Source of the DNA: a virus
Direction: 5' to 3' (one strand)
Virus record (IMG/VR): IMGVR_UViG_3300034418_011714
Location: 1 to 21,758 of that record
Length of the DNA: 21,758 nt
In this document: positions 538 to 9,548 of the stretch, piece by piece
Numbering within the stretch: the stretch's first letter is position 1
Layout: each line of letters begins with the position of its first letter
Made by a program: the position numbers and the translations under genes
The notes under the pieces: model-generated
The model's database searches: none
What the model was told of the DNA's origin: nothing
Seen by the model: only the letters and a program-made list of their open reading frames with translations

Positions 538-1335
538 ATGACGAATAGTGCTTTGGAATATTATGAGACGATTGCAGAGGATTATGATGAAGAAACGAAA
601 AGCCCCGTGATGCTTGCCGAAGATATTGTGCTTTTTGATTTTCTAAAAAATGAAGGAATGCTTCGTGGAAGAGTGTTGGATGCCGGATGTGGCACAGGCC
701 TCTTCCTGGATCAATGCTATTGGCCCAAGTGGGACATTGAGCACTATATTGGCTATGACTTTTCCAAGTCAATGCTCAACAAATTCGGCAAGAAGTGGCC
801 CAGCTTCCGCCAGTTTATTCATCAAATGAGCTTCCTGGATGACCATGACAAATTCGGTGACACCTTTACTGCAGTGGTTAGCCTTTATGCTGGATTGAAT
901 TGCCTCACTAGATCTGAGATGAAACTCGCTTTTGAAAATCTTTGGGGTTGTGTTAAAAAAGGCGGCACCCTTTGCTTGATGACCTATGGTTCCTTGACTC
1001 CAGAGGAAAGAGACACTAGCCTACATACCATCTTATCTGACAAAAAAGGCTACCACTATTCTATGGTAGAGGACTTTGTTCTTTATGAATGGTTGAGATC
1101 CCTGCCACAATCCTCCAACCACAGAATACTCCCCTTTTCACAGCCATTGCCACCGGATGTGTCCGAACCGATAACTGGTTCAGATAACATGGGTTCTATT
1201 CTGTACCACAAGGATCGAATTGAAGAGGACTTGGAAGAGGTATGCCTTGAACAAGATACCATGCACTATAGCAAAAAAGGCGGCACCTCAAGAAAAGAGT
1301 GCTCCTTTTATCTATGCATTGCCGATAAATTTTAA
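538..1335 (+). CDS. Class I SAM-dependent methyltransferase
   Basis: This 265-residue protein has the glycine-rich SAM-binding motif I of class I methyltransferases, VLDAGCGTGLF, at about residues 46-56. An acidic residue ends the next strand (GYDFSKSML, about 73-81), and a later strand reads VVSLYAGLNCL. A motif of the type KKGGTLCL follows, as in Methyltransf_11/25-like proteins. No DNA-methylase catalytic motif (DPPY or PCQ) is visible, so the substrate could be a small molecule, protein or nucleic acid. The ATG at 538 is preferred over the GTG at 532 because GGAG at 529-532 then sits 5 bases upstream. It is followed after 14 bases by the PAPS-reductase-like gene, which suggests co-transcription. 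The class call is solid; the substrate is unknown. Confidence 0.85.
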   Translation: MTNSALEYYETIAEDYDEETKSPVMLAEDIVLFDFLKNEGMLRGRVLDAGCGTGLFLDQCYWPKWDIEHYIGYDFSKSMLNKFGKKWPSFRQFIHQMSFLDDHDKFGDTFTAVVSLYAGLNCLTRSEMKLAFENLWGCVKKGGTLCLMTYGSLTPEERDTSLHTILSDKKGYHYSMVEDFVLYEWLRSLPQSSNHRILPFSQPLPPDVSEPITGSDNMGSILYHKDRIEEDLEEVCLEQDTMHYSKKGGTSRKECSFYLCIADKF

Positions 1336-1349
1336 CCTGAGAAGGACTG

Positions 1350-2489
1350 ATGCCGAGAAAGAAAACCGGAAACACTGTTTTAGATGAAGCCATTGGTAGA
1401 GTTGCTTGTCTCTATGAAGAAGGACATCGCATTGTGGTATCTTTTTCTACTGGGAAGGACTCTACAGCACTACTGGAAATTTGCATAATGGCTGCCCAAA
1501 TGACGGGTAGATTGCCTGTTGATATTGTGATCCGTGATGAAGAAGTAATGTTCCCTGGAACTTATGAATTTGCAGAAAGGGTCGCAAATCGACCCGAAGT
1601 CAATGTTACCTGGCTTGTAGCAAATCAACCAATAATCAATGTTTACGACAGAAATAATCCATATTTCTGGGTTATGGACAAAGAATTGAGTCCATCCGAA
1701 TGGATGAGAGAACCGCCCAAGTGGGCAACCTATATTAAGGAACAACATATTGAAGCAATGACAACTCCTGCTAGGTTTCCATTGCAAACGGATCAAAAGC
1801 TATATGCTGCAATTGGTCTTAGAACCGATGAATCCAGACATCGTTTATATGGATTATTTACTTCTGGAGGGTACATCACTAAACCAAATCGTTATAAGGT
1901 TGCTAACATCCGTCCAATTTATGATTGGACATCAAAAGATGTTTGGAAATTTATCAAGGAGTTTAACCTTGATTACAATAGGGCTTATGACGTTATGTTA
2001 AGGAATCGTATACCTAATCCTATTATGAGAATTGGGCCTCCTACTTCTAATCCTTATGGAATTGAGGCACTACGAATGGCTTCTAGTGCATGGCCTCAGT
2101 GGTTTGACAGGGCTTGCGAAAGGTTAAAAGGGATTAGAACTGGAGTGAAGTTTGGGATGCATGCCTTGACACCTACAAGAAAGTATGGTGAAACATGGGA
2201 AGAGTGTTTTCATAGAACTTGTGTTGATGAGGCTCCAGATTGGATTCGTGAAAGGGCCTTATTGACTAAGAAAATCTATATGAGAAGACATGCTAAACAT
2301 GCTTCTACTGCATTTCCAGAAGTTCATCCTTGTATGAGTTGCACTGGAAATATTGCGTCATGGAAAAAGATGGCAATGTCATTGTATAATGGAGATCCTT
2401 GGTCAACAAAGGCATCATTTTTACCAATGGTAGAACCGGAATTTTTTAGAGAAGGCGCAGGTAACTGGAATGGTAAACCGACTTTTTAA
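1350..2489 (+). CDS. PAPS-reductase / ATP-pyrophosphatase family protein (IbrA-like)
   Basis: The 379-residue protein carries the PP-loop SFSTGKDS at about residues 31-38, which binds and adenylates with ATP in the PAPS reductase / DndC / tRNA-thiolation superfamily. GLRTDESRHR (about 156-165) and RPIYDWTSKDVW (about 188-199) are further hallmarks of the family. Two cysteine pairs, CFHRTC (about 286-291) and CMSC (about 328-331), could bind metal or an iron-sulfur cluster, or act in redox chemistry. With a ParB-like gene directly downstream it matches the IbrA/IbrB type of pair known from Escherichia coli and many phages. Metabolic sulfate reduction is unlikely, since no partner genes are seen. 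Sulfur transfer to nucleic acid or a regulatory role is possible but inferred. The ATG is preceded by GAAGGA. Confidence 0.85.
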   Translation: MPRKKTGNTVLDEAIGRVACLYEEGHRIVVSFSTGKDSTALLEICIMAAQMTGRLPVDIVIRDEEVMFPGTYEFAERVANRPEVNVTWLVANQPIINVYDRNNPYFWVMDKELSPSEWMREPPKWATYIKEQHIEAMTTPARFPLQTDQKLYAAIGLRTDESRHRLYGLFTSGGYITKPNRYKVANIRPIYDWTSKDVWKFIKEFNLDYNRAYDVMLRNRIPNPIMRIGPPTSNPYGIEALRMASSAWPQWFDRACERLKGIRTGVKFGMHALTPTRKYGETWEECFHRTCVDEAPDWIRERALLTKKIYMRRHAKHASTAFPEVHPCMSCTGNIASWKKMAMSLYNGDPWSTKASFLPMVEPEFFREGAGNWNGKPTF

Positions 2490-2514
2490 TCTGAAACTTT
2501 ATAACCTATATAAT
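2486..2514 (+). promoter_or_regulatory. Weak candidate promoter before the parB-like gene
   Basis: A perfect -10 hexamer TATAAT (2509-2514) lies in the 59-base gap between the PAPS-reductase-like and ParB-like genes. The -35 position, 17 bases upstream (2486-2491), is a poor match. In AT-rich DNA such a hexamer can occur by chance, so this is only a candidate. Confidence 0.25.
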
Positions 2515-2548
2515 TTTTTTGTATTCTTTCAATGAAAAAGGTTTTTGT

Positions 2549-3460
2549 ATGAATAGTAAGCCTATTGAACAACAAGTTGAAAATACCACACCTGCTGAAA
2601 CTCAACAGAGGGTTACTGAAAAAGTAAAAAAGAAGGGTAAAAGGGCTGTAGATAAAAAGAATAAGGCCTTAGAGACCTTAAATGTTGAATATGTTAATGT
2701 AAATGATATTCATCCTAATGAGTGGAATCCAAATCGACAAAGTGATCATGACTTTGAATTGCTTTTGAAGTCCATGTCTGAGGATGGCTTTACTCAACCT
2801 GTGGTTTGTATACGAACCGAGGATGGTAGAATTAAGATTGTGGATGGGGAACACCGTTGGAGAGCAGCACACTCTCTTGGGTTTGAAGAGATCCCTGTAG
2901 TGATCACTCCAATGACGGAAGAACAAGCAAAAATTGCGACACTTCGTCACAATCGTGCAAGAGGTTCGGAGGATATTGACTTAACTGCAGAATTGCTAAG
3001 GGATTTAGAGAAAGTTGGGGCTTTGGATTGGGCACAGGATTCTCTAATGTTGGATGATGCAGAATTGAATAAACTCCTTGAGGATATTCCTGCTCCAGAC
3101 GCATTAGCAGGAGAGGATTGGAGTGAGGCCTGGGAACCTTCCAATGACAGGGATATTGAGGATGATGATGAGTTGGAAACTACTACAGAGACGAGAGAGA
3201 TTAATTCTGGTGGTGGAGGAACTGTTGCTGCTGCATCATCCATTGCAGCAGTGGAGCGTCAACGTGAAAGAGAGAAGCAGTTGGCAGAAGCAAAAACTGC
3301 AGAGGAGCGTCAGGCCTTACGAAAGGATCACGATATCTTTAGATTGTACTTAACCTTTACTGGGGATGAAGCCACTGTTGTAAAGAAGGTTCTAGGAAAC
3401 AGGGCTGCAGAGAAAGTTATTGAAATGTGTCAAAAGGAAGAACAATTAATGGAGGAGTGA
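2549..3460 (+). CDS. ParB-like nuclease-domain protein (IbrB-like)
   Basis: The 303-residue protein has a ParB/sulfiredoxin-type N-terminal domain at about residues 45-190. It shows the signature DGEHRWRAA at about 99-107, and TLRHNRARG at about 131-139 in the place of the second ParB box. A basic segment (about 21-40) precedes the domain. After it come an acidic linker (about 205-230), a charged coiled-coil-like stretch and a small C-terminal domain. ParB-family domains can bind or hydrolyse CTP, and some related proteins cut DNA. Next to a PAPS-reductase-like gene it resembles IbrB; next to the terminase genes it could also act in packaging. It is not a plasmid-partition ParB, as no parA is present. 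The ATG at 2549, with AAGG 7 bases upstream, is preferred over the TTG at 2519. Confidence 0.8.
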   Translation: MNSKPIEQQVENTTPAETQQRVTEKVKKKGKRAVDKKNKALETLNVEYVNVNDIHPNEWNPNRQSDHDFELLLKSMSEDGFTQPVVCIRTEDGRIKIVDGEHRWRAAHSLGFEEIPVVITPMTEEQAKIATLRHNRARGSEDIDLTAELLRDLEKVGALDWAQDSLMLDDAELNKLLEDIPAPDALAGEDWSEAWEPSNDRDIEDDDELETTTETREINSGGGGTVAAASSIAAVERQREREKQLAEAKTAEERQALRKDHDIFRLYLTFTGDEATVVKKVLGNRAAEKVIEMCQKEEQLMEE

Positions 3461-3461
3461 T

Positions 3462-3962
3462 TTGGGTAGAAAAACAAGCTTTCCCCAAGAGGAACTTGGG
3501 AGGATGAAAGCAAGATGGGAGGCTGGTGATGATATTGAAGATATTGCAGGTGAGTTTAATTTGACTTCAAGTGCTATTCGATATCATGCAAAAGAAAATA
3601 AATGGGAAAGTAGAGGGGCCTTTAAGGAAAAATATAATCAAAATACCTTAGAGGCCAAGAGAAATGTTGTCATTGCAGACAAGGTTGAGAGATCCCTGCA
3701 AGAAACAGAAAAGTTTATACAGGATTCCGAAAGGATTCGGATGTTGATTCTTCAATTTCAAGGAAGGATGTTGAAGAATAGAGATCCTGCTACAAACGAG
3801 TTGATTCTTGATAAGTCAGAAGGGGATCTTATTTTCCAATATTTAAAGTGCTGTAAGATTTCTATGGAAACTCTTACGATTGGATATATGGGTAAGCGTA
3901 AGGCCCTTGGAATGGATGATGTTGTGAAGAATGATGTTACTGTTCTACCTTGGGAGGATTGA
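3462..3962 (+). CDS. terS: Terminase small subunit
   Basis: The 166-residue protein begins with a helix-turn-helix at about residues 20-46 (DIAGEFNLTSSAIRYHAKEN is the core). This is the DNA-recognition fold with which small terminases bind the packaging site. A helical middle and C-terminal region, suited to ring assembly and contact with the large subunit, follows. The start is a TTG with a very strong GGAGGAG at 3451-3457, only 4 bases upstream. The stop overlaps the large terminase ATG by one base (TGATG), which suggests translational coupling. The call rests on the helix-turn-helix plus the position directly before a clear large terminase. Confidence 0.85.
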   Translation: MGRKTSFPQEELGRMKARWEAGDDIEDIAGEFNLTSSAIRYHAKENKWESRGAFKEKYNQNTLEAKRNVVIADKVERSLQETEKFIQDSERIRMLILQFQGRMLKNRDPATNELILDKSEGDLIFQYLKCCKISMETLTIGYMGKRKALGMDDVVKNDVTVLPWED

Positions 3963-5194
3963 TGCCTCTTACTGCTGCGCAGAAAGATATTTCTGAATCG
4001 GATGCTAGATTTAAGGTTGTAGCTGCAGGAAGGAGGTTTGGCAAAAGTTTTTTGAGCCTTTCCTTAATGGCGAAGGTGGCTCGTTATCCTTATTCTCAAG
4101 TATGGTATGTTACTACAACGTATTCTGCTGCAAAGAATATAATGTGGTCTTACCTAAAGCAAAAACTTCAGAAGTTTGGATGGGCCAAATCCTTTCATGA
4201 AGTAGCACTACAGGCCAATTTAGTGAATGGTTCTGTGATTTCTTTAAAAGGGGCCAACAATCCAGATAGTCTTCGTGGAATTGGTTTGGATTATTTGGTT
4301 TTGGATGAGGCGGCATATCTGGATGAAAGAGTATGGACAGAAGTTTTGCGTCCCACTTTGTCAGATAAACAAGGTGGGGCCTTATTTATTTCAAGTCCTT
4401 CTGGAAGAAATTGGTTTTATGATCTCTGGATTGCAGGACAGGATGAGGATGAAGAGGATTGGGAATCCTGGCAATATACAACACTGGAAGGTGGAAATGT
4501 ACCTCCAGAAGAAGTAGAGGCAGCAAGAAGGAATTTGGATGAAAGAACATTTGAGCAAGAATATGAGGCAGAGTTTGTTACTTACACTGGTTTAGTATAT
4601 TATGGTTTTAATTATATGGAATCTGTTGTGGATCGAGAGTATAATCCAGAAGAACCAGTTTTAATAGGAATGGATTTCAATATTGATCCAATGACTGCAA
4701 CAGTGTTCCAAATGGATGAGTATGATGGAACTTTATTTCTTGTGGATGAAATTGAAATCTTTGGTTCAAACACTGATGAAATGGCAGAAGAGATTCTTTG
4801 CAGATATCCAGAAAGAGAAATTACAATATTTCCAGATCCTGCTTGTGTTCAGACAAGGACATCTGCTGGTGGAAGGACTGACCTTTCTATTTTGCAGAGT
4901 TATGGATTTAAGTGTAAATTTCGCAGGAAACACCCATTGGTGAGGGATCGTATTAATGCAGTGAATTCTGCTCTTTGTTCTGCAGATGGAAGTAGGCGTT
5001 TATTGGTTCATAAGGGATGTAAGCGTGTGATTCATGCTTTGGAAAGGCATTCTTACAAGAAGGGTACAAACCTTCCTGAGAAGGGTGGAGATAATGATTT
5101 ATCACACATGACAGATAGCATTGGTTATTTGGTTGAGTATCTTTATCCAGTTAATAAACAAGAAGCTGGAACTGCTGACATTTATGGAGTTTAA
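3962..5194 (+). CDS. terL: Terminase large subunit (packaging ATPase and nuclease)
   Basis: The 410-residue protein has the packaging motor ATPase at its N-terminus. Walker A is AAGRRFGKS at about residues 21-29, Walker B is YLVLDEAAY at about 109-117, and the coupling motif ISSPSG lies near 141. The C-terminal RNase H-like nuclease shows acidic positions in GMDFNID (about 235-241), IFPDPA (about 288-293) and NDLSHMTDSIGY (about 377-388). It pumps phage DNA through the portal and makes the headful or site-specific cut. The ATG at 3962 follows GGGAGG and overlaps the small-subunit stop; an upstream TTG at 3950 is less likely. At 410 residues it is a compact family member. Confidence 0.95.
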   Translation: MPLTAAQKDISESDARFKVVAAGRRFGKSFLSLSLMAKVARYPYSQVWYVTTTYSAAKNIMWSYLKQKLQKFGWAKSFHEVALQANLVNGSVISLKGANNPDSLRGIGLDYLVLDEAAYLDERVWTEVLRPTLSDKQGGALFISSPSGRNWFYDLWIAGQDEDEEDWESWQYTTLEGGNVPPEEVEAARRNLDERTFEQEYEAEFVTYTGLVYYGFNYMESVVDREYNPEEPVLIGMDFNIDPMTATVFQMDEYDGTLFLVDEIEIFGSNTDEMAEEILCRYPEREITIFPDPACVQTRTSAGGRTDLSILQSYGFKCKFRRKHPLVRDRINAVNSALCSADGSRRLLVHKGCKRVIHALERHSYKKGTNLPEKGGDNDLSHMTDSIGYLVEYLYPVNKQEAGTADIYGV

Positions 5195-5202
5195 GAGGAA
5201 GA

Positions 5203-6702
5203 ATGTACTACTATAATACAACAAATCGTTCCGCACAGATTCAGTATAATTCTGTTCATCCAAAATATAAGGATTACTTGGACATTTGGTTGAAATGTAG
5301 GGATTGTTTTGATGGAGAAGAAGCAGTAAAGGATAAGAATCAAAGATATCTTCCTTTTTTGACAATGCAGGAGTCCAGCGAATATTACAATTATAAGAGT
5401 AGGGCCATATTTTTGAATGTAATGAGAAGAACCATTCAAGGATTAGTTGGTGCGGCCCTGCGTAAAACTCCAATTATAAAAGTTCCTGCAAGAATGGAGT
5501 CCTATCTGGAGGACATGGATCTTCATGGAATGACAATTATGGAGTTAATCCAGAAGTTATTGACAGAGATGTTGGTGACAGGAAGAGTTTGTGTAGTTGT
5601 GGATCGTCTTGAAAATAGCAGATGTTATACATCCTGTTATTCTGCAGAATCGAATATCAACTGGAGATATCAGGACAAGACTCCAATTATGTCTGTTTTT
5701 GCAGAAGAGATAGATGTTACAGAGGATGGGTTTTCCCATGAATTGAGTAATCAATATCGTGTTTATGATTTTGATGAGGATGGAAATTTAAGGGTTCGTG
5801 TGGCCTTGGAAAAGCTCCCAGAGGAAGAAGATGGTGAAAAGGGTGATGAGGCCAGTAGGGACTTTGAAATTATACATGAGGTTTACCCTTCTTTTCGTGG
5901 TGAAGGATTAAAGGATCTACCTGTTTTTGTTTTCAATTCTTCTGGGTTGGGGTTGGATACAGTGAGTCCTCCTCCTTTAGTGGATCTTGCAAATATTTCT
6001 CTTTCTCATTATCGTACATCTGCTGATTTAGAAAATGGCAGACACTTCACATCGTTACCGCAAGCTTGGTTGACAGGGGTTGATAAGGATGATTTCATCA
6101 ATGGATTGCACATTGGTGGAAACAAGGCCTGGATCATTCCAAATGAAGCGGCAAGGCTGGGGTATTTGGAATTTTCTGGTCAAGGTTTAGGTTCATTGGA
6201 GAATGCCTTAAAGGAAAAAGAGGCAATGATGGCAGTAGTTGGGGCCAGACTCCTTGAATCTAAGAAAGGTGTGGAAAGCGCAGAAACATCCAGAATTCGT
6301 CAAAATATAGAGACAAGTGTTTTATCTCATATTGCAGTCACCCTTCAAAATGGTCTTCGTAAGGTACTAGGGTACATGGCCCAATGGGAGGGATTGAATG
6401 CAGATGAAGTCCATCTTGAACTCAATATGGATTTTGTGGATGTTCGTATTCCTCACCAAGAGATCATTGCACTTGTACAAGCGTACCAAATGGGTGGCAT
6501 TTCTATGGACACACTTCTTTATAATCTCAAGCAAGGCGAAGTCATTCCAGATGATGTTTCAATTGATGATGAACGAGAAAAAATAGAGATGGAACATGGA
6601 TCAAATGACGATGGCCCAGAGGACAACAGGAGCGAAGTATTACGAGATACCGAGCAGGAAAAGCTCCGAAAGGCCCTTTCCGACTCAGGGAGAGGTGATT
6701 GA
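5203..6702 (+). CDS. Portal protein, DUF4055 type
   Basis: The 499-residue protein matches the DUF4055 family of phage portal-like proteins. The conserved early segment reads YLPFLTMQ, then YNYKSRAIFLNVMRRTIQGL (about residues 66-85) and GAALRKTP just after. The family forms the dodecameric ring at one head vertex through which DNA enters and to which the connector binds. The C-terminus is highly charged and rich in Asp, Glu and Arg. GAGGAAGA lies just before the ATG, and the gene sits 8 bases after the large terminase. The next gene probably begins inside its last codons. Confidence 0.85.
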   Translation: MYYYNTTNRSAQIQYNSVHPKYKDYLDIWLKCRDCFDGEEAVKDKNQRYLPFLTMQESSEYYNYKSRAIFLNVMRRTIQGLVGAALRKTPIIKVPARMESYLEDMDLHGMTIMELIQKLLTEMLVTGRVCVVVDRLENSRCYTSCYSAESNINWRYQDKTPIMSVFAEEIDVTEDGFSHELSNQYRVYDFDEDGNLRVRVALEKLPEEEDGEKGDEASRDFEIIHEVYPSFRGEGLKDLPVFVFNSSGLGLDTVSPPPLVDLANISLSHYRTSADLENGRHFTSLPQAWLTGVDKDDFINGLHIGGNKAWIIPNEAARLGYLEFSGQGLGSLENALKEKEAMMAVVGARLLESKKGVESAETSRIRQNIETSVLSHIAVTLQNGLRKVLGYMAQWEGLNADEVHLELNMDFVDVRIPHQEIIALVQAYQMGGISMDTLLYNLKQGEVIPDDVSIDDEREKIEMEHGSNDDGPEDNRSEVLRDTEQEKLRKALSDSGRGD

Positions 6703-7627
6703 TTTAATTCTTTCAAGACATATAAGAATTGTTAAGTTTGCAAATTATGTAGCAAATTCAATTAACAATGAATTTATAGGATTTTGTAATGAGTTGGTTA
6801 GTGATTTATTGATTGATGCAAAGGATTCAATATTTGATGATTCTATTAGCAGAATTGATAAATTTTTAGAGAAGATGCATGTTAAGTTTTATCAATTAAC
6901 AAAAAGAATAGATTTGTTATTGGGAGAGAACATTGATTCTACTTTTAAAAGCGAGATCTCTTTTTTGGAACGATCCTTCCCAGGATTGTTATACGACAGA
7001 ACCAAGTCTCCTTCTCATGAATTATTTGGCGTCCCTTACAGGGATCATTTTTCTGTTATCTTTACTTCATTAAGAAAAGACATTACATCAAATTATAAAG
7101 TTTCGATTTCTTATAATCATCCAGATTCTTTTTTATTGGACAAGTTTAGGGGTAGTCGAAAATTCAATTATAAGGATAGTATTTTTGCTAATTATCACAA
7201 TAAGTTAAAGTCTCTTGTCAAGAGTATTATTCTTTGTTTTTCTTCGGAGGTTCGTTTTTTCTTTTATTTTAAAAACCAAGAGAATTTTCCTTTTTTCCAA
7301 GAATCCCTTCCTCTCTCCGAATCTAAGTCCAAGAAGAAAGATTCTAAATTGGGCGTTTATTCAACCAGCGATTTTTCTCCTAGAAATAATTCTGAAGTTT
7401 GGAAAGGATGTCTTCCTCATTTTAATTCCACATTAACACAAGTTCCTTTATTTAATTTGGAAGAATCCAATAATTTTGATTTCAAGAATTGGTTTTATTC
7501 TCAACCAAAAACTTTCCAGAAGGAGGTGTTGGGAGAAAAGAGATTTAAACTAATGTTGAATGACAAATATTCTTATTCTCAGATTTTTGATTTTTCAAGG
7601 TCAAATTTAAATGGTGCAAATTTATGA
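6695..7627 (+). CDS. Putative minor head protein, MuF-like
   Basis: This frame of about 310 codons is rich in Phe, Ser, Asn and Lys. The C-terminal segment WFYSQPKTFQKEVLGEKRF (about residues 271-289) fits the pattern of MuF / SPP1 gp7-like minor head proteins, where a Trp, a QP and an LG-x-x-R follow one another. Position after portal and before scaffold supports this. Minor head proteins of this type attach to the portal or are ejected with DNA. The best start is GTG at 6695, overlapping the portal stop (GTGATTGA); the frame is also open upstream to an ATG at 6596. Codon use is much more T-rich than in the neighbours, which may reflect separate ancestry. Confidence 0.55.
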   Translation: MIDLILSRHIRIVKFANYVANSINNEFIGFCNELVSDLLIDAKDSIFDDSISRIDKFLEKMHVKFYQLTKRIDLLLGENIDSTFKSEISFLERSFPGLLYDRTKSPSHELFGVPYRDHFSVIFTSLRKDITSNYKVSISYNHPDSFLLDKFRGSRKFNYKDSIFANYHNKLKSLVKSIILCFSSEVRFFFYFKNQENFPFFQESLPLSESKSKKKDSKLGVYSTSDFSPRNNSEVWKGCLPHFNSTLTQVPLFNLEESNNFDFKNWFYSQPKTFQKEVLGEKRFKLMLNDKYSYSQIFDFSRSNLNGANL

Positions 7628-8269: not shown

Positions 8270-9015
8270 ATCTTGGAGATGCGGAAAACTTTAGTCGAGA
8301 TCAAGTGCAGGAGATTGTCAACAATGCTTTGAAAAGCGAAATTGTTGGATTGAAATCGAATAACCAGGCCTTGAAGGATGAGAAGAAAAAGGCACAGGAT
8401 CGTATTCGTGAGTATAGTGATATTCTTAGTAGTTTTGGTGGTCAAGAAGGCTTGAATCAACTACAGGCCCTTAAGCAAAAGATTGAGCAAGATGAAGAGT
8501 TGCGTCTATTTACTTCTGGGGATCGTGAAAAGTATAACGATAGAATTTTGGCAAGGGCCAAACAGGATCATGCAAATCAACTAAAAATGTTGAGTGAGGA
8601 TCGTGACAAATGGAAGGGGCAAGCAGATTCTTTTGTCAAGAAGTTCCAACAAAGAGAAATAGAAAAGTCAATCATGGATGGATGTGCAGCATCTGGTGTA
8701 AATCCAAGGTATTATAAAGCGATGAGTGCCCAGGTTCGGGATGACATCATCTTTGATGAAGAAACCGAAAGAGTCATTGTTAAGGACAATGATAATAATT
8801 TGCGTTATGGCAAGGATGGTCAACCAATGCAGGTTGGAGAATTAATTGATACTCTTCGTGATGATCAACCAGAATTATTTATGCAGTCCACTGGTAGTGG
8901 TGCAGTTGGATCTTCTTCTGGTGTTAGAAGGTACACTGGAGTGTCACAGGATGAAATCAAAACGATGTCTGTCAGTGATTATAAGAAGTTGCGTGAACAG
9001 GGAGTCATTCGTTGA
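8173..9015 (+). CDS. Capsid scaffold protein
   Basis: The 280-residue protein is dominated by charged, helical, coiled-coil-like sequence (about residues 45-180). A Gln/Ala-rich N-terminus, a flexible Gly/Ser-rich stretch (STGSGAVGSSSGVRR) and a short basic helical C-terminus (SDYKKLREQGVIR) complete it. This is the usual architecture of phage scaffolding proteins, whose C-terminal helix binds coat protein during procapsid assembly. The place before the major capsid gene agrees. The ATG follows GAGAGAG. No Ser protease signature is seen, so scaffold may be released rather than cleaved. Confidence 0.75.
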   Translation: MEQAQQEAASMVQEVQATAGGEAQAGVEVPQIDLGDAENFSRDQVQEIVNNALKSEIVGLKSNNQALKDEKKKAQDRIREYSDILSSFGGQEGLNQLQALKQKIEQDEELRLFTSGDREKYNDRILARAKQDHANQLKMLSEDRDKWKGQADSFVKKFQQREIEKSIMDGCAASGVNPRYYKAMSAQVRDDIIFDEETERVIVKDNDNNLRYGKDGQPMQVGELIDTLRDDQPELFMQSTGSGAVGSSSGVRRYTGVSQDEIKTMSVSDYKKLREQGVIR

Positions 9016-9548
9016 TTTATAGTGACATTTCTTTGTTTGAATTGCAGAAGCAGGGATATCTTCCAGAAGGGGCCTTTATAGGCCCTTCTAGTGTGGATTT
9101 AACTTTATCAAATTCATTTTGTATTCTTGATCCAAAACATGAAGAAGAGATAGATATTCGTGTTGAGCAAGAATTTTATGAATGGAATTCTGAATTTATC
9201 GTAATGGAACCTGGAGAATTTGTTTTAGCTTCAACAAGTGAGGAAATAGGAGTTCCTATTGATTGTGCTGCATATGTTGAAGGAAGGTCTTCTGTAGGAA
9301 GAATTGGAATACAAGTTCAAAATGCAGGTTTTATTGATGCTGGATTTCGTGGTCAAATAACATTAGAACTACAAAATCAATCTAAGCACTTTATTAGACT
9401 TTATTCTGGAATGAGGATATGTCAATTGGTGTATTGTCAAATGACAACTCCTTGTTCTAGTCCATATAATGGTAAATATCAGTTCCAAAAAGGAGCAACT
9501 TTTTCTAGAATACATCAAGATGTAGAATTTTATGATGATTTGTCGTAA
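9012..9548 (+). CDS. dcd: dCTP deaminase family enzyme
   Basis: The 178-residue protein has the dCTP deaminase fold of the dUTPase superfamily. IGPSSVDLTLS (about residues 23-33) is the family's N-terminal signature. EGRSSVGRIGIQ (about 90-101) carries the substrate-binding Arg92, Ser93 and Arg97. AGFIDAGFRGQITLEL (about 105-120) carries the catalytic Glu119. YQFQKGATFSR (about 156-166) is the nucleotide-closing tail. The enzyme converts dCTP to dUTP, feeding dTTP synthesis or base substitution. A TTG start at 9012 overlaps the scaffold stop (TTGA) and has GGGAG 7 bases upstream. A nucleotide enzyme between scaffold and coat genes is unusual and suggests a later insertion. A bifunctional deaminase/dUTPase cannot be excluded. 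Confidence 0.9.
   Translation: MIYSDISLFELQKQGYLPEGAFIGPSSVDLTLSNSFCILDPKHEEEIDIRVEQEFYEWNSEFIVMEPGEFVLASTSEEIGVPIDCAAYVEGRSSVGRIGIQVQNAGFIDAGFRGQITLELQNQSKHFIRLYSGMRICQLVYCQMTTPCSSPYNGKYQFQKGATFSRIHQDVEFYDDLS

Follow-up and report, generated by a model that had tools for sequence, protein, structure and literature searches.

The window considered here is the whole 21,758-nucleotide stretch of IMG/VR virus record IMGVR_UViG_3300034418_011714. Near its start it carries three genes in a row, all on the plus strand, which encode a methyltransferase (MT), an IbrA-like protein and an IbrB-like protein (Table 1). The first-pass annotation, made from the letters alone, had placed this trio directly upstream of the terminase genes; the Pfam and PHROG matches and the coordinates confirm that placement, and IbrB is followed, in order, by genes for the putative small subunit of the terminase, its large subunit (TerL) and the portal. 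The IbrB start is probably the ATG at 2549 rather than the TTG at 2519, because most close relatives begin at the matching ATG. Compared with relative L004 (NG86), the trio is under purifying selection, with dN/dS values of ~0.21 for MT, 0.04 for IbrA and 0.06 for IbrB at a dS near or above saturation.

Table 1. Features of the locus, in positions of the window
Feature	Position	Strand	Basis
MT, class I SAM-dependent methyltransferase, 265 aa	538..1335	+	Pfam Methyltransf_25/23/11
IbrA-like PP-loop (PAPS_reduct) protein, 379 aa	1350..2489	+	Pfam PF01507 2e-14
PP-loop ATP pyrophosphatase motif SFSTGKDST in IbrA	1440..1466	+	alignment of 47
Cys291 in EECFHRTC motif of IbrA	2220..2222	+	conserved 45/47
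HxxH...CxxC zinc-type site of IbrA (H314, H317, C328, C331), predicted	2289..2342	+	alignment
Empty slot between IbrA and IbrB	2490..2548	+	filled by other genes in relatives
IbrB-like ParB/Srx-fold protein, 303 aa	2549..3460	+	Pfam ParB_N 1.2e-15; start from relatives
IbrB nucleotide-pocket motif VDGEHRW	2840..2860	+	GEHRW in 41/41
gp4, putative small terminase	3462..3962	+	weak phrog_867 'DNA binding domain' match 0.0014; position; synteny
Terminase large subunit (TerL)	3962..5194	+	Pfam Terminase_6N 8e-15
Portal protein	5203..6702	+	phrog_145 2e-114

The association of the three genes was observed directly in a set of 90 distinct modules, obtained by searching with IbrA. Of the modules with sufficient flanking sequence on the relevant side, 68 of 73 have MT upstream and 86 of 87 have IbrB downstream; in the reverse search with IbrB alone, IbrA accompanies every match whose upstream sequence exceeds about 1.25 kb. 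The wider MT alignment was too divergent, and the MT search was made with the alignment of a single clade (A7): nine of its ten matches were contigs already known to carry IbrA, and the tenth contig ends within MT. A 4-bp overlap between MT and IbrA is common. The three proteins have evolved together, as judged from protein distances in 58 modules (Mantel r of 0.92 for IbrA-IbrB and 0.84 for IbrA-MT). The contigs bearing modules span 32-74% GC, and the TerL groups near the modules are 4, 13, 11, 22 and 36 (24, 19, 10, 10 and 4 contigs, respectively). Since several terminase groups accompany the trio, its being the baggage of one clade was ruled out, and within phage lineages it has been co-inherited with the terminase over the long term. 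The gene-neighbourhood check proposed in the first pass thus shows a genuine module, extending far beyond the phage of the window: the three genes are not rarely found together, nor does the ParB-like gene alone track with the terminase.

The IbrA protein matches phrog_2302 (7e-50) in addition to Pfam PAPS_reduct. In structure searches with its AF2 model (pLDDT 92), residues 4-251 resembled PP-loop enzymes, the PAPS domain of FAD synthase reaching a Z of 17.8, APS/PAPS reductases 13.6-14.8 over residues about 1-247, and TtuA, NcsA and TilS 11-12, with residues 252-379 falling outside the structural matches; no PDB sequence matched the IbrA profile at E 0.01. Across 47 relatives the PP-loop residues S33, G35, K36, D37 and S38 are invariant. 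The first-pass annotation had described two Cys pairs, a description that does not hold for two equal pairs: C291 is kept in 45 of the 47 relatives, C286 in 32 and the CxxC (C328/C331) in 36. The CxxC and H317 disappear together (35/1/0/11; Fisher p = 7e-10), and this joint loss points to a zinc-type HxxH...CxxC site. Judged from the alignment, the cysteines of IbrA are one nearly invariant residue and a dispensable zinc-like HxxH/CxxC site. The catalytic ECGxH motif of PAPS reductases occurs in none of the 47 relatives, and the window IbrA falls far under the cut-off of the NCBIfam PAPS-reductase equivalogs, as well as that of the DndC equivalog TIGR03183 (16.6 bits vs 290.4). A Fe-S thiolase of the TtcA/TtuA type was also rejected, the cluster cysteines (CxxC + C) being unconserved.

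MT matches Pfam Methyltransf_25 (E 1.3e-9) and contains a motif I of sequence VLDAGCGTG. The nearest solved folds to its AF2 model (pLDDT 88) are small-molecule methyltransferases, led by 2avn (Z 21.6, rmsd 2.8, 226 aligned), and CmoM follows with a Z of 18.2 (rmsd 3.7, 225 aligned). None of 45 MT sequences contains a DNA-methyltransferase motif, whether the amino type [DNS]PP[FYWH] (for example DPPY) or the C5 type PCQ, and MT itself was consequently ruled out as a DNA methyltransferase.

With respect to IbrB, the Pfam ParB_N match (PF02195) is accompanied by one to phrog_2159 (7e-35) and by PDB profile matches to Noc/ParB (6e-13) and SbnI/SerK (6e-5 to 2e-4). The GEHRW box is found in 41 of 41 IbrB sequences, where DGEHRW is invariant, and GERR in none; the ParB_N domain together with this nucleotide-pocket box assigns IbrB to the ParB/Srx (ParB-CTPase) superfamily. 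It is not a ParB partition protein: the GERR box is absent and the score for TIGR00180 (parB_part) is 52.9 vs a cut-off of 58.45. The protein carries an additional C-terminal region, and a search for a helix-turn-helix (HTH) found none. IbrB also aligns to the ParB portion of phrog_498, a family of ParB-DNA methyltransferase fusions, and one methyltransferase encoded between IbrA and IbrB in a relative weakly matches a different section of the same family.

This space between IbrA and IbrB behaves as a swap slot. In relatives it hosts an N6/N4 DNA methyltransferase, a glucosyltransferase (GT), a GNAT acetyltransferase, a 2OG-Fe(II) oxygenase-like protein or a protein of ~113 aa (s113), all of them optional, and the window module, its slot being empty, has no DNA-modifying slot gene of its own. 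Recognised DNA-modifying enzymes inside the cassettes are N6_N4_Mtase, detected by HMM in 25 of the 90 modules, and a C5 DNA methyltransferase adjoining MT in relative L012. Among 16 N6_N4_Mtase members that cluster together, 15 carry DPPW or DPPY; homologues L108 and L064 are examples of modules with a DNA methyltransferase. The glucosyltransferase, phrog_854, is present in 34/90 modules and lies in the slot in seven of eight GT-bearing contigs; in relative L074 it is fused to IbrB as a single protein. No thymidylate-synthase-type hydroxymethylase (PF00303, PF02511) was found in 15 long contigs, which may be incomplete, and with no ThyA/ThyX homologue in these contigs a direct, hydroxymethylation-dependent glucosylation is less likely.

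The exchange of DNA amino-methyltransferases, glucosyltransferases and other enzymes in the slot fits nucleic-acid modification. We favour, at roughly even chances, a reading in which the trio forms the core of a portable cassette by which phages modify nucleic acid, the most likely target being the genome of the phage itself prior to packaging. Drawing on ATP at its PP-loop, IbrA would adenylate an oxygen of the target and then replace this oxygen, a step in which Cys291 would probably carry the sulfur or act as nucleophile. The small-molecule-type MT would then add a methyl cap to the product, and IbrB, as a nucleotide binder, would recruit the enzymes to DNA or gate access by NTP; in many relatives the slot enzyme (DNA amino-methyltransferase, glucosyltransferase, acetyltransferase or oxygenase) might give an extra decoration or an alternative mark. 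We infer the DNA substrate, the order of the steps, the use of sulfur and a protective role. The first-pass annotation had suggested nucleic-acid modification by sulfur plus methyl addition: the slot swaps fit the modification, while the sulfur part is hypothetical, with ECGxH in 0/47 and a single near-invariant Cys. Thiolation plus methylation by the trio is possible. It is rather unlikely that the cassette represents a previously unrecognised pathway of phage DNA modification in which a PP-loop enzyme relying on one catalytic cysteine adds sulfur or an amino group to a base or phosphate, a dedicated small-molecule-type methyltransferase caps it, a ParB-fold NTPase does the targeting and decorators are interchangeable; if true, a modular sulfur-plus-methyl DNA mark would extend across phages of very different hosts. 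Several points count against a DNA target, namely the lack of DNA-methyltransferase motifs in MT and its likeness to small-molecule enzymes, the empty slot of the window, the optional nature of the slot genes, and the lack of a hydroxymethylase in the 15 long contigs, which leaves the acceptor of the glucosyltransferase unexplained.

Known systems offer partial parallels. PP-loop-based base modification in phages was reportedly predicted by Iyer et al. in 2013. Dnd/Ssp phosphorothioation combines a PP-loop sulfur enzyme (DndC/SspD) with the ParB-superfamily DndB on DNA, whereas the cassette is phage-borne and has an additional MT, and no Dnd/Ssp partner genes were noticed adjoining the modules. 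In type-4 BREX the PAPS-reductase-like BrxP acts in a DNA-marking context (PMC12839542) and the PADLOC BrxP model gives a weak match (6.8e-10), but the cassette is a compact phage trio and no PglZ or other BREX genes were noticed nearby. The Dpd system, where the ParB-like ATPase DpdB assists a base-modifying enzyme in 7-deazaguanine insertion into DNA (PMC12839542), differs in that the trio has a PP-loop enzyme and MT, and no TGT-like DpdA was noticed in the modules. ParB domains are further tied to DNA-modifying enzymes in phages by the phrog_498 fusions, by ParB-CTPase folds fused to N6_N4 MTase and Methyltransf_23 (PMC12704722) and by the ParBc neighbours of the DNA carboxymethylase CmoX (PMC12783734); in the cassette, in contrast, the ParB partners are IbrA and a non-DNA-type MT, and the DNA methyltransferase is optional.

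The pair itself recalls the canonical IbrA/IbrB, annotated as co-activators of prophage gene expression in E. coli, Streptococcus, Lactobacillus and Flavobacterium phages, and the first-pass annotation had considered that the trio might steer host transcription or packaging. Both pairs join homologous PP-loop PAPS_reduct and ParB_N domains (profile matches to canonical IbrA of 6e-35 to 3e-44, and to canonical IbrB of 2e-23 to 3e-36), and a few canonical pairs, those of Obutu, FCL-2 and XCL1123, have terminase or portal genes close by. However, DUF3440 (PF11922), present in three of the four canonical proteins tested (PhiR5_2, CHPC1230 and FCL-2; not Obutu), has no match in the IbrA of the window, L108 or L084; no MT, GT or DNA methyltransferase adjoins the pair at 12 canonical loci; ten canonical IbrA proteins have no Cys aligned to Cys291; and, among the matches listed, GenBank phage IbrA proteins are at most about 31% identical to that of the window. 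Given also a slot rich in modifying enzymes and an IbrB in which no HTH was found, it seems improbable that the pair co-activates or reprograms phage or host transcription as in E. coli, with MT modifying a regulator, and the suggestion of steering is weak. Equally little weight falls on a cassette in which MT, GT and other enzymes decorate capsid or tail proteins and IbrA activates a donor or acceptor. In Cluster O mycobacteriophages such as Firecracker, phrog_854 GTs adjoin a methyltransferase between portal and protease, a region for which capsid modification has been proposed (PMC4351075), and the MT fold is akin to that of small-molecule and sugar methyltransferases. This arrangement in a capsid operon also counts against a DNA target, but those phages have no IbrA/IbrB alongside, the GT is optional and missing from the window slot, the slot also hosts DNA amino-methyltransferases, and the fusion partner of the GT is the ParB-fold IbrB rather than a structural protein, nucleotides or DNA being the usual targets of ParB-fold proteins.

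There is likewise a small chance that the trio modifies tRNA during infection, in the manner of a PP-loop thiolase or lysidine synthase acting with a CmoM-like methyltransferase. The fold matches to TtuA, NcsA, TilS and CmoM and a weak match to a phrog_4752 tRNA methyltransferase are consistent with it, while these fold matches are unspecific, the Fe-S cysteines are unconserved, and the N6/N4 enzymes of the slot and the ParB partner point elsewhere. We give similarly low credence to an anti-defence or nucleotide-pool system leaving no mark on DNA, in which the substrates of IbrA/IbrB would be adenine nucleotides or a signalling metabolite, with MT capping the product: the ParB/Srx fold covers free-serine kinases and NTP binders (PMC12704722), MT is small-molecule-like and the site by the terminase is an accessory one, but co-inheritance with the terminase and the adjacent DNA methyltransferases suggest a link to packaged DNA, and the near-invariant Cys of IbrA would be unaccounted for. 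Strongly disfavoured, to the point of being negligible, is an auxiliary gene boosting host sulfur metabolism, as reported for comparable phage genes (PMC10434257); the Pfam PAPS_reduct match would suit a PAPS reductase, but ECGxH is missing, the equivalog scores are far too low and IbrA is almost always paired with a ParB-fold protein.

A literature search for the MT-IbrA-IbrB trio found no description, and isolate-based collections have missed the cassette, as no close relative of it was found among 50,697 GenBank phage records. It looks like a little-known kit, carried by many uncultured bacterial viruses, that would put a chemical mark on the DNA of the virus itself; if it does so, it would add a modular anti-restriction chemistry absent from those collections. 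IbrA/IbrB-like pairs, common in phages, go by the labels 'PAPS reductase', 'partition protein' or 'co-activator', and a branch bound to MT, with a swap slot for DNA-modifying enzymes, makes the question of which reaction they carry out directly testable.

The first-pass annotation had read three non-structural genes in a row before the terminase genes, and the ORF listing and Pfam/PHROGs scans bore this out: in this IMG/VR virus record (21.8 kb, GC 0.384), a class I SAM methyltransferase (MT), an IbrA-like PP-loop protein and an IbrB-like ParB/Srx-fold protein are encoded in one orientation. The same listing and scans placed putative small terminase, large terminase (TerL), portal and tape-measure genes 3' of the trio, and the scaffold and major capsid genes, located by position and GenBank similarity, sit between these. 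The capsid module includes a dCTP deaminase/dUTPase-family gene (9012-9548), flanked by the scaffold gene and the major capsid gene and retained in relatives (62-66% identity in contigs L015 and L017). A 343-aa ORF (6596-7627) overlaps the 3' end of the portal gene; within it, only 40 aa look head-morphogenesis-like (phrog_241) and nothing in Pfam matches, and in relatives it is fast-evolving with synteny kept.

Trio genes located in the window by the ORF listing and Pfam/PHROGs scans
Gene	Position	Orientation
MT	538-1335	same as IbrA and IbrB genes
IbrA-like	1350-2489	same as MT and IbrB genes
IbrB-like	start probably ATG 2549, end 3460	same as MT and IbrA genes

The proposal that these genes form one module was supported by their relatives. 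An IbrA alignment search yielded 86 contigs from viruses, of which 80 were kept, plus 5 metagenome-assembled bacterial contigs; these hits and those of other searches, with redundant cores merged, gave 90 modules, which are not 90 independent events because several are near-copies. All module-bearing sequences are metagenomic, with flanks frequently cut. MT was present in 68 of the 73 modules whose upstream sequence reached 800 bp, and IbrB in 86 of the 87 whose downstream sequence reached 1.2 kb. The reverse searches agreed: among the best 80 of 443 IbrB matches, IbrA was found upstream wherever the upstream sequence exceeded about 1.25 kb, and nine of ten matches to MT (one clade) were contigs already known to carry IbrA, the tenth ending inside MT. 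MT-IbrA overlaps of 4 bases are common. The order MT-IbrA-IbrB-small terminase-TerL-portal is the same in every sufficiently complete close IMG/VR relative, with one variant, contig L012, where IbrA and MT are separated by a C5 DNA methyltransferase along with small genes. The nearest GenBank TerL relatives, Pelagibacter phages (about 48%), carry no trio in their annotation over the 6 kb leading up to TerL. In one clade, IbrB and the small terminase are separated by a convergent Amidoligase_2 and gamma-glutamylcyclotransferase (GGACT) pair (L013:3720-5249 and many relatives, including L056, L058 and L071), and some contigs carry a second, shorter ParB-like gene 5' of the module (L104:4487-5011, L043:3505-4131, L053:3627-4127).

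In many relatives, the slot between IbrA and IbrB, empty in the window, holds one or two additional genes. These include a family of about 113 aa (40/90 modules, e.g., L058:6092-6433; motif WxWAKTYAxxAPHWY ... YKYW) with no match in Pfam or PHROG, a glucosyltransferase-like protein (phrog_854; 34/90) and a short N6/N4-type DNA methyltransferase (25/90), of whose 16 clustered members 15 have DPPW/DPPY, the SAM motif being mostly intact. GNAT acetyltransferases occupy the slot in L049 and L057, and a 2OG-Fe(II) oxygenase-like protein, scoring slightly below the Pfam cut-off, in L091. When positions were compared, phrog_854, found in 8 of 15 long contigs, was the slot gene in 7 of the 8, and L074 encodes the glucosyltransferase and IbrB as a single fused protein.

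The IbrA model (AF2, pLDDT 92) comprises a PP-loop domain (residues 4-251) resembling the FAD-synthase PAPS domain (Z 17.8, rmsd 3.3, 170 aligned), ATP sulfurylase subunit 1zun_A (Z 15.7) and APS/PAPS reductases (Z 13.6-14.8). Its PP-loop residues are invariant in the alignment, and the PAPS-reductase ECGxH motif occurs in none of 47 sequences. CxxC and H317 are absent together, with one exception in 47, and since the loss of one tracks that of the other, CxxC is best read as a putative zinc-type structural site. C291 is kept in 45/47, and ten canonical IbrA proteins have nothing equivalent; a near-invariant cysteine limited to the MT-associated branch is compatible with sulfur transfer, without proving it. 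In IbrB, the ParB/Srx box reads DGEHRW in 41/41 and GERR in 0/41; the protein scores below the partition-protein cut-off, and profile comparison with the PDB relates it to Noc/ParB and, less strongly, to the kinases SbnI and SerK. The SAM motif of MT is canonical (VLDAGCGTG), and no DNA-methyltransferase motif was found in the window copy. The MT model (pLDDT 88) is similar to methyltransferases of the small-molecule C-, N- and O- kinds (2avn, Z 21.6), with tRNA CmoM a less close match (Z 18.2); such fold matches do not pinpoint the substrate.

The window pair has the same two folds as IbrA/IbrB, yet is not a canonical member, as follows from three observations. All 50,697 GenBank phage records fall below 60% to three IbrA queries, none of the matches listed exceeding about 31% identity; MT, the glucosyltransferase, the DNA methyltransferase and the 113-aa family are absent from 12/12 canonical loci; and the window IbrA lacks DUF3440. 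The window MT had no match at E 1e-5 in GenBank phage records.

The gene content, conservation, exchange, fusion and motifs of the module are established. We give an even chance to nucleic-acid modification, most likely of phage DNA; that substrate, a use of sulfur, the order of steps and a protective purpose are what we infer. ParB folds have precedents in such settings: DpdB is the ParB-fold partner of a DNA-modifying enzyme (PMC12839542), the DNA-modifying CmoX has ParBc neighbours (PMC12783734), and in phages ParB is fused with N6_N4 MTase and Methyltransf_23 (PMC12704722). Transcriptional co-activation, as by canonical IbrA/IbrB, appears improbable. Modification of tRNA is similarly unlikely. 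Virion modification, a published alternative (of the capsid) for MT and glucosyltransferase in cluster O mycobacteriophages (PMC4351075), and nucleotide or anti-defence chemistry are given the same low probability.

Downstream of the modules, TerL belongs to sequence types 4, 13, 11, 22 and 36 (24, 19, 10, 10 and 4 cases; 14 unassigned). These groups derive from home-made profiles, and types 4, 11 and 13 match a common Pfam family, Terminase_6; type 22 matches TerL_ATPase/TerL_nuclease, and type 36 has no Pfam match. Module contigs range from 32 to 74% GC. Across the tree of IbrA, TerL type must change at least nine times, against a possible minimum of four, and is still clustered; therefore, the module is kept within a phage lineage over long spells and appears to be swapped between lineages with different packaging enzymes. 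Distances correlate (Mantel) between IbrA and MT (0.84) and between IbrA and IbrB (0.92). Conserved functional sites are the usual location of intein-like insertions, and the IbrB of contig L008 (2648-4369) bears one of roughly 270 aa, which splits GF from TQP in the conserved box and is missing from its close relative L010. In both contigs, TerL carries a LAGLIDADG intein directly after the Walker A GRRFGK (L008:4906-7188 and L010:4292-6574).
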